A stretch of DNA of 21,206 nucleotides from Clostridiales bacterium (GTDB lineage: Bacteria > Bacillota > Clostridia > Lachnospirales > WQUN01): assembly GCA_031254075.1 (NCBI GenBank), contig JAIRVD010000054.1, positions 1 to 21,206 of the forward strand. Direction: 5' to 3'. The number at the start of each line of letters is the position of its first letter. Position 1 is the first letter of the stretch. The notes under the pieces are model-generated. The model worked only from the letters and a program-made list of their open reading frames with translations. It did no database searches and had not been told where the DNA came from. Below are positions 13,857 to 16,372 of this stretch, piece after piece. Both the position numbers and the translations under genes were made by a program.

Positions 13857-15164
13857 ATGGAATATTTCGGTTTAAGTGAAATTCGCAGCAATTTGGTTTT
13901 CGTCAGCGGCGTAGGTGAAGCGGCGTTCGATGAGATTGTGGAAATCAAAGCGGGCGAAGTAAAATCGCGAATCGGACGAGTTATTCAGATTGACGGGGAT
14001 GTTGCGGTGATTTTGGTTTTTGAGGGTGCGCGAGAGCTTACGCTAGAGAAGACATCGGTAAAGTTTACGGGGCGGCTTTTGGAAATTGGGCTTACGGAAG
14101 AAATATTGGGGCGGGAATTTGACGGGCTTTCGCGTCCGCGCGATGGACTTGGGCGGGTTTTTGCGAAGGAGTATCGCGAGATTAGCGGTGTGGCGTTGAA
14201 TCCTGTTGAGAGAATTTATCCGCGTAATTACATACATACGGGGTTTTCGGCGATTGATTGTTTGGCGACATTGATACGCGGTCAGAAGCTTCCGATATTT
14301 TCGTGCGACGGACTTCCGCATGATAAACTTGCGGCGCAAATTGCAACGCAGGCGAAAATTTCCGGCGATGAAAAGTTTGCGGTAGTTTTTGCGGCTATGG
14401 GAATTGGGCATGACGCGGCGGAATTTTTTCGTCGAACGTTTATTGAGAGTGGGCAATACGAGCGCACGGTAATGTTTTTGAATATGGCAAATGACCCGCC
14501 GACAGAGCGTGTTGCGACGCCGCGCTTCGCGCTGACTGCGGCGGAATATCTTGCGTATGACTGCGGCTATCATGTGTTGGTGATTCTGACAGATATGACG
14601 GCTTACGCCGAAGCCTTGCGCGAAATTTCATCTGTACGCGGCGAAATTCCGGGGCGGAAGGGGTTCCCGGGTTATATGTATTCCGACCTTGCCTCGCTTT
14701 ACGAACGCGCCGGCATTCGCAAGGGTAAGGCGGGTTCGATTACGCAGATTCCAATTCTTACAATGCCGGGCGAAGATATTACGCATCCGATTCCCGACCT
14801 CACGGGCTACATAACGGAAGGGCAAATCGTCCTCGACCGCGCGCTGCATTTGAAGGGAATTTTTCCGCCGATTAATGTTCTTCCGTCGCTTTCGCGTCTT
14901 ATGAAGGACGGCATCGGCGAAAATTTTACGACAAAAGAACACCCCGCCATAGCCGCAAAATTATTTGCGGCATATGCCGGGGTAGGGGATGTACGTTCGC
15001 TTGCGTCGGTAATCGGTGAAGAAGATTTAGCCGAAACGGATAAAATATTTTTAAAATTCGGTCGTCGTTTCGAAGAGGAATTTTTGCATCAAAACGAAAA
15101 TCGCACAATGGTGCAGACGCTTGAATTAGCTCAACGACTTCTTCAATGCCAAACGAGCGCGTGA
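13857..15164 (+). CDS. ntpB: V-type ATP synthase subunit B (orphan, C-terminus short)
   Basis: 435 residues covering the beta-barrel, nucleotide-binding and most of the helical domains of the non-catalytic B subunit. Landmarks are [23 protein letters not shown] with the degenerate P-loop at about residue 150, [69 protein letters not shown] and LPSLSRLM with probable arginine finger Arg347. Usual B subunits read SGSGLPH; here it is SCDGLPH. The protein ends at [14 protein letters not shown], about 18-25 residues before the usual C-terminus, and its 3' end overlaps an opposing sigma-factor gene by 39 bp. In known operons B sits between A and D with I, K, E, C and F nearby; none is adjacent here. 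GAGGTG precedes the ATG. Confidence 0.93.
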
Positions 15165-15644
15165 TAGTCGTGATTTTACCGTGCCGACGGAAATTTTCAG
15201 CGCGTCGGAGAGCTCGTCGTATGATAAGCCTTGCATATCGCGCAGAATTATTACCATGCGGTGGTCTTCCTGCAAATCGTCAATCGCGCTGAGAATTTCA
15301 CGAACACGTTCGTTTGCTGCGGCGTTTTCTTCCGCCGAGGGTAGGGGAGTGAGAAGGGTTTCTTCGGTCAACTCGCAGGTTTGCGGGCGGCGTTTTCGCA
15401 ACGCGTCAAGGCAGACGCGAGCGGTAACGGTGCAAATCCATGCTTTTAGATTGCCACCCTCGGGCAGTTTTACGTGCGGAATTCCCGTATAAATTTTTAT
15501 CGCGGCTTCTTGGCTCGCGTCCATTACGTCGTCGGGATTTTTAAAATATCTTCGCGCAATAAAATAAATAAGTTTTTGATATTTTTTCAAAATTTCTTCA
15601 AACGGATATTTTGAATTTAATAGAATTTCGTCAGACTTTTCCAA
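15126..15644 (-). CDS. ECF-type sigma-70 family RNA polymerase sigma factor
   Basis: 172 residues. Region 2 is at about residues 15-90 ([35 protein letters not shown], then [21 protein letters not shown]). After a variable linker, region 4 is at about 115-170 with the helix-turn-helix [32 protein letters not shown]. Regions 1 and 3 are missing, as in extracytoplasmic-function sigma factors. TTG15644 is the start: an in-frame TGA lies 18 nt upstream, and AGGAAA precedes it at acceptable spacing. No anti-sigma gene follows; downstream is the oppositely oriented ATPase B gene, overlapped by 39 bp. It lies directly behind the 6S-like RNA and may receive read-through transcription from it. Confidence 0.94.
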
Positions 15645-15668
15645 GGTAAAAATTTCCTTTCAAACTGC

Positions 15669-15852
15669 AAAAAAATAACCCGGAGTGCCGGTCCTATATT
15701 TTGACACCTAGCCTAAAGGCTAGGTGGGTGTCCGCAACAGAGATTCCGTCTTCCGTTCGAGACGGCACGACGTAGGCTGTGTGTATAAATAGGACTCCCG
15801 TTTCGCGTCTGTAGGTTCAAAATAATAGGTTATCGAGCATCCCAGGCTCTGT
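15669..15852 (-). ncRNA. ssrS: 6S RNA candidate
   Basis: On the - strand a transcript of about 184 nt runs from a TATAAT promoter to a stretch of seven T. Its ends pair: ATAACC with GGTTAT, then GGAGT with ACTCC and TCCTAT with ATAGGA around a CCGGC bulge. This forms a long interrupted closing stem. The apex is the hairpin CCGTCTC/GAGACGG-like (15746-15765). Between them the 3' strand of the central bubble holds the hairpin ACCTAGCC/GGCTAGGT (15707-15725), preceded by GGACACCC. Length, end pairing, open central bubble and the small hairpin in its 3' strand are the hallmarks of 6S RNA, which mimics an open promoter and sequesters sigma-A RNA polymerase. Assigned by structure and remembered family motifs, not by a covariance search. 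Confidence 0.72.
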
Positions 15853-15858
15853 AAAAAT

Positions 15859-15888
15859 ATTATAAGCTTTGGAATGATAATTATGCAA
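15859..15888 (-). promoter_or_regulatory. Promoter of the 6S-like RNA
   Basis: On the - strand TTGCAT (15888-15883), 18 nt, then a perfect TATAAT (15864-15859). Initiation would fall at about 15852-15850, matching the 5' end that pairs with the transcript's 3' end. Confidence 0.6.
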
Positions 15889-16012: not shown

Positions 16013-16372
16013 GTGAACATGAATAACATGAACAGCAATTTCGGTAACCAGGTAGGCAGCAGGTCAAGAATGGCTTGCGGTCTTGTAGCGTTACTCGTAC
16101 CCATGTTAAGTTGTGGTTATTTCAATTTCGGAATCCACCATTTTATGCTGGGTAAAACGGGTTTGGGTGCCGCGAGTGCGATTATTTCCGGATTAAATAT
16201 ATTCGGCTATCTGATTTCATACTTACTAATGTTTGTCGGAATCGGATTTATCACAATTTGGTTTAATGTTGCCATCACTTTCGGAATGTGGATTTGGGGA
16301 ATCATTGATGGAATAATGATTCTCACAAACCAAAACTACAGAGACGGCGACGGATACTTGCTCGGACCGTAA
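16013..16372 (+). CDS. TM2-domain membrane protein
   Basis: 119 residues from GTG16013, with a strong AGGAGGAAA site. An Asn/Met-rich hydrophilic N-terminus of about 18 residues is followed by hydrophobic segments at about residues 21-45, 48-72 and 75-105. It contains the TM2-type features GIHHFMLGKTGLGAASAI in the first half and WIWGIIDGIMILTNQN at the end of the second. TM2 proteins are small, widespread membrane proteins of unknown function, and the usual aromatic-phenylalanine spacing is kept here. The gene is alone, with two dyads upstream and a terminator downstream. Confidence 0.85.
   Translation: MNMNNMNSNFGNQVGSRSRMACGLVALLVPMLSCGYFNFGIHHFMLGKTGLGAASAIISGLNIFGYLISYLLMFVGIGFITIWFNVAITFGMWIWGIIDGIMILTNQNYRDGDGYLLGP

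Follow-up and report, generated by a model that had tools for sequence, protein, structure and literature searches.

A 6S RNA gene precedes an ECF sigma factor gene

The stretch of DNA analysed here (hereafter, the window) comprises 21,206 nucleotides (nt) of contig JAIRVD010000054.1 from a Clostridiales bacterium. Its minus strand carries a gene for 6S RNA, well known as a brake on the main RNA polymerase of bacteria (sigma-A), followed by a gene for an extracytoplasmic function (ECF) sigma factor. The 6S RNA gene spans positions 15669–15851 (minus strand; ~183 nt including the T-run). The Rfam covariance model of 6S RNA (RF00013) matches positions 15673–15851 of the minus strand with 59.5 bits, above the curated cut-off of 46.4 bits, and the match covers the whole model (1–187 of 187). 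Judged by this model, the RNA is a true 6S RNA. An earlier note on the window had described a 6S-like RNA of ~184 nt with a TATAAT promoter, paired ends, a central bubble and a T7 tail, and had suggested the RF00013 search; the match bears out the description, and all of these parts are found. The window locus is the single 6S match in its own assembly (392 contigs, 78.5% complete).

Folded alone, positions 15664–15851 give −60.6 kcal/mol (z = −3.0), a value equalled by 1 of 200 shuffles. We aligned 31 6S copies from 30 genomes of the family, which was sampled as 38 genomes, the window's included. The consensus structure has 52 pairs, 21 of which show double-sided changes (shuffled mean, 10.8), and 96.3% of cells pair (shuffled mean, 89.9%); on five measures none of 500 shuffles is as high, although structure and test share one alignment, which biases the test in favour of the structure. 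When the structure is slid along the alignment, pairing falls to 38–47%. The rod architecture of 6S RNA (closing stem, central bubble, and apical arm) is present and backed by covariation. The Rfam match and the covariation rule out a chance fold as the source of the structure, and by these measures the 6S RNA looks functional. One family genome, G014, carries two near-identical 6S copies on separate contigs (L041 and L044).

The predicted template for product RNA (pRNA) is ATTTTGAACCTAC (positions 15811–15823, minus strand), with the start opposite C at position 41. The block ATTTTGAACCTACA is unchanged in all 31 of the aligned copies and would template a pRNA starting GUAGGUUCAAAAU from position 41. 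At the level of sequence, the central bubble has what a template calls for, an invariant block and a position-41 start. In Bacillus subtilis 6S-1, the pRNA GUUCGGUCAAAACU is reported to be templated from nt 40; it and the predicted pRNA both start with GU, and both have UCAAAA at positions 7–12 (PMC12005410, PMC8876501). As far as 6S-1 is described in these reports, the two RNAs are also alike in length, closing stem, central bubble, apical arm, and position-41 template. We find no difference in the RNA itself, but the following gene differs.

The following gene (positions 15126–15644, minus strand) has 172 codons and starts with TTG at 15644–15642. Sigma regions 2 and 4 are both present in its product (PF04542 Sigma70_r2, 52.2 bits; PF08281 Sigma70_r4_2, 55.6 bits; both above cut-off), and the protein matches NCBIfam TIGR02937 with 103 bits, also above cut-off. 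The sequence AAAGGA at 15655–15660 (minus strand) is the likely ribosome-binding site, and a Shine–Dalgarno-like motif lies upstream of the sigma start in 14 of 14 loci. The ratio of nonsynonymous to synonymous substitution rates (dN/dS) of the sigma gene was sought in four genome pairs; it is 0.07 in two and undefined in the other two. The two values obtained show purifying selection on the gene.

The 6S promoter of the window, as read from the sequence, is TTGCAT-N18-TATAAT, with the −35 box at 15883–15888 and the −10 box at 15859–15864 (both minus strand); the −10 box ends 7 nt from the RNA start. The promoter is conserved: of 30 copies from the family, 24 have TTG-N16..18-TATAAT at most 22 nt from the 5′ end of 6S. 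The −35 box agrees with TTGACA at 3 of 6 positions, and a consensus promoter scan does not list this promoter. Directly upstream of two 6S genes, those of G010 (L049) and G028 (L047), there is no TATAAT box. For G028, inspection by eye shows TTGC..TATAAT ~37 nt further upstream, which suggests a longer 6S precursor. At the other end of the window's gene, a run of seven T (15669–15675, minus strand) directly 3′ of the closing stem forms a built-in terminator. From the end of this run to the sigma start codon is 24 nt, in agreement with the ~25 nt given by the earlier note, and the Pfam and TIGR02937 matches confirm its assignment of the gene to the ECF sigma factors.

The pair is conserved across genera of the family

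A 6S match is present in 30 of the 38 family genomes and a sigma ortholog in 17, the latter at a threshold of E ≤ 1e-38 with a model that was built from linked sigmas and hence favours them. In 13 of the 17 sigma-bearing genomes, from 9 genera, the sigma gene starts 18–123 nt past the Rfam 6S end on the same strand (G000, G003, G005, G007, G010, G011, G015, G021, G024, G026, G028, G029, and G034); the distance is within 52 nt in 12 of the 13. The synteny in relatives that the earlier note had proposed to inspect is therefore present. G017, in which a 28-codon frame at the contig end resembles a sigma start by eye, is left out of the 13. In the remaining carriers, sigma and 6S are 812 nt apart (G023) or on different contigs (G014 and G025), or there is no 6S match (G032).

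The sigma proteins of the 11 relatives with the pair within 52 nt are 43–77% identical to that of the window. The nearest gene upstream of 6S is common to 1 of 98 cross-genus pairs (15 genomes, including G017 and G023), and the gene after sigma is common to 3 of 60 (12 genomes), all three being an anti-sigma gene. Flanking genes thus differ between genera while the pair stays, indicating that the pair is a conserved unit. A tree of 39 sigma proteins places the linked ones in a single clade of 16 rows (support 97/88), and the linkage label changes 3 times, compared with 11.1 times in shuffles. The tree fits one gain and two losses of linkage.

In two genomes of the window's genus, G002 (L020) and G004 (L023), 6S faces the ATP synthase B gene with no sigma gene between, and no sigma ortholog is found genome-wide at E 1e-38. 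This looks like loss of sigma at the same site.

Between the end of the T-run and the sigma start lie 122 nt in G010 and 14–49 nt in the other 13 of 14 loci. Because sigma starts so close behind 6S, there is little room for a separate promoter in most genomes; outside the 6S gene, the spacing would mostly be too short for a promoter and a ribosome-binding site.

Linkage outside the family

In the other families of the order, an ECF gene lies behind 6S in none of 101 loci. This number combines 24 loci of 22 genomes (one of which, L021, has only 76 nt downstream) with 77 loci (76 with at least 300 nt downstream); the 77 exclude a second 6S copy in G114 and the locus of G153, which has no sequence downstream. 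The nearest sigma homologs gave 80 named loci, and 6S lies near sigma in three of these. Two of the three, L055 and L056, are apparent counterparts of family genomes G007 and G021. The third, L103, belongs to a distant member of the Clostridia (G062, Eubacteriales bacterium STF2_94), in which 6S, an ECF sigma gene, and a zf-HC2 anti-sigma gene stand in a row (L103:2242–3984), flanked by YebC-like and PolA-like frames by eye. G062 and 40 relatives have 37 6S matches, of which 30 were examined as loci (two with less than 300 nt downstream), and none of the other 29 loci shows 6S–sigma adjacency. Therefore, the G062 adjacency may be due to chance. In G074, sigma is 1,047 nt from 6S, with an open frame between.

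Anti-sigma genes are adjacent to sigma in a deeper branch

In seven genomes (G010, G026, G028, G023, G032, G014, and G025), the gene behind sigma encodes a protein with an N-terminal zf-HC2 domain. Six of these seven proteins also carry DUF4349; that of G010 is read only in part. A profile of the seven matches its own members with 352–434 bits, and a second DUF4349-type match follows behind all but that of G025. In the window, no anti-sigma gene is adjacent to sigma: the next gene encodes V-type ATP synthase subunit B (positions 13857–15164, plus strand; NCBIfam NF003235, 645 bits), is convergent with the sigma gene, and overlaps its end.

The profile finds a full-length anti-sigma relative in G011 (206 bits), which has both zf-HC2 and DUF4349 and whose gene does not share a contig with sigma. 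In eight genomes, the window's and seven relatives (G000, G003, G005, G007, G015, G024, G029, and G034), the best match covers the DUF4349 part only (61–106 bits). A second DUF4349-type gene follows in seven of the eight, and in G029 the contig ends first. In the window's genome, the two genes stand in tandem at L262:954–2694 (contig C233), without zf-HC2, and match the anti-sigma over its C-terminal half. Three of the eight proteins (those of G000, G015, and G024) were submitted to Pfam, together with that of G002, a genome with no sigma ortholog; all four show DUF4349 and none shows zf-HC2. The profile search of G021 gave no DUF4349-type match. From the shared two-gene order, we infer that the anti-sigma gave rise to the DUF4349-only proteins. 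The zinc-finger anti-sigma is kept behind sigma in the deeper branch and is absent beside sigma in the window and seven relatives.

Comparison with known systems

A conserved gene behind 6S is already known, as the ygfA, purD, and uspA examples show. In Escherichia coli, 6S (ssrS) is reported to be co-transcribed with ygfA, in an order highly conserved in gamma-proteobacteria (PMC2848244). The window resembles this arrangement in having a same-strand protein gene behind 6S that is kept across genera, and differs in that the follower is an ECF sigma gene and that co-transcription, demonstrated in E. coli, is here deduced from the arrangement. In Campylobacter jejuni and Helicobacter pylori, 6S is described upstream of purD (PMC3847290); there too, one follower is kept while the upstream gene varies, but purD is a purine gene and the follower here encodes a sigma factor. 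In lactic acid bacteria, rarA is described as kept upstream of 6S, and uspA is often downstream (PMC8414754). A search of open-licence papers returned none evidently about a 6S gene beside a sigma gene.

ECF sigma factors without an anti-sigma are also known: HrpL and SigE of Streptomyces coelicolor are described as being under transcriptional control (PMC8999054). The window's sigma likewise has no adjacent anti-sigma gene, so that control would be at synthesis; it differs in that its leader is a 6S RNA gene plus terminator.

Transcription of the sigma gene

We consider it probable that 6S and sigma form one transcription unit, in which sigma is supplied when polymerase reads through the 6S terminator. 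One promoter, the sigma-A-type one in front of 6S, would drive both. The majority of transcripts would stop at the T-run behind the closing stem and yield 6S RNA, and the fraction that reads through would serve as the sigma message, with the ribosome-binding site a few nt further on. A consensus scan of the minus strand from 15851 to 15644 lists no promoter, although the same scan also misses the 6S promoter. We scored 14 loci with a matrix from family 6S promoters and a −10 table, which covers promoters of that kind. The stretch just upstream of 6S scores 8.4–16.2 in 12 of the 14, the exceptions being G010 and G028, which have no such promoter nearby. The best sites inside the 6S gene and spacer score 3.7–10.1 at scattered positions, and no consistently placed promoter between 6S and sigma of the types scored is found. 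In its absence, sigma mRNA would most likely come from read-through, and we infer that read-through occurs and supplies the sigma factor.

Several observations weigh against this reading. The inside site of the window, TTGCGG-16-TAGGCT, scores 10.1, a value reached by 1 of 100 shuffles, and that of G017 scores 9.6 (3 of 100). G010 carries TTGTAT-16-TATATT in its long spacer, where 123 nt leave room for a promoter of its own. In 3 of the 14 loci (G010, G017, and G028), an inside or spacer site outscores the stretch upstream of 6S. Behind the closing stem, T is slightly more frequent in linked loci than in unlinked ones (n = 14 and 17; 7.4 vs 6.2 of 10; p = 0.03); the stem energies are equal. 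In addition, sigma is not linked to 6S in 15 of the 30 genomes that have a 6S match (G017 and G023 set apart), and several of the genomes considered for the anti-sigma carry further zf-HC2 proteins, so that an anti-sigma acting in trans is possible.

The terminator comparison bears on the earlier note, which had proposed "leaky" termination. Weaker terminators in linked loci were sought through tail T counts and stem energies and rejected; as linked terminators are no weaker than unlinked ones, simple leakiness is disfavoured. The note had also seen no promoter between 6S and the sigma gene. This holds insofar as none is consistently placed. The inside sites raise the alternative that sigma is transcribed from a promoter of its own within the 6S gene, which an ECF sigma factor may read, and that promoter overlap rather than read-through holds the pair together. 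The sites in the window and G017, the spacer site of G010, and the scope of the scoring, which leaves ECF-type promoters aside, leave room for this. We nevertheless regard it as unlikely: the best inside sites vary in place over the 14 loci, mostly without a TATAAT-like −10 box, and at least 12 of 100 shuffles score as high in 11 of the 14 (12 in G010), the window and G017 being exceptions. Furthermore, the 6S sequence is already constrained by its own structure.

It is quite possible that the two share a transcript but that 6S lends sigma only its promoter and terminator and the actions of the two are unrelated, given that 6S heads the unrelated metabolic genes ygfA and purD in the reports cited above (PMC2848244, PMC3847290). 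Two facts point the other way, suggestively: the follower here encodes a protein that itself works with RNA polymerase, and beside the window's sigma the anti-sigma control of the sister branch is missing. Finally, the adjacency could be an inherited accident without function. A single event could yield all linked family members (three label changes on the tree), many relatives have no sigma or have it elsewhere, and G062 would be a separate origin of the same arrangement. Against this, both flanks are replaced between nearly all genera, yet the window and 11 relatives keep the pair within 52 nt, and the dN/dS values of the two computable pairs show purifying selection on the sigma gene. We regard an accident as very improbable.

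A coupling of sigma-A restraint to the supply of a competing sigma factor, as the earlier note proposed, is plausible. In the window's branch, which lacks the adjacent zinc-finger anti-sigma, 6S transcription may now be the main control of sigma. A more elaborate form, which we hold to be decidedly unlikely, is that 6S is a regulated attenuator: the state of the nascent RNA (free, pRNA-refolded, or polymerase-bound) would set termination, and this control would have replaced the anti-sigma where its relative has no zinc finger. If so, the RNA that restrains sigma-A polymerase would also meter an alternative sigma factor.

B. subtilis 6S is reported to leave sigma-B polymerase unbound (PMC7430163). 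With sigma-A polymerase restrained and sigma-B polymerase unbound, 6S should favour alternative sigma factors, and a sigma gene directly behind 6S makes this idea testable at one locus. The genomes offer a natural series of four states: 6S with sigma and anti-sigma (G010, G026, and G028); 6S with sigma, plus a full-length anti-sigma relative on a separate contig (G011); 6S with sigma, where the only relative is a DUF4349 protein at another site (the window and seven further genomes); and 6S without a sigma ortholog (for example, G002 and G004).

Other genes near 6S

Upstream of the 6S promoter, the window has a 119-codon frame (positions 16013–16372, plus strand) that is membrane-protein-like and TM2-like by eye; Pfam and NCBIfam give no match at 1e-3. 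In three genomes of one family genus (G031, G036, and G061), the gene upstream of 6S, on the same strand, encodes the sporulation sigma factor SigF (NCBIfam spore_sigF, above cut-off; L007:733–1458, plus strand; L011:1720–2448 and L153:1861–2589, minus strand). The SigF gene ends 42 nt from 6S in G031 and G036 and, by the coordinates, ~70 nt from it in G061.
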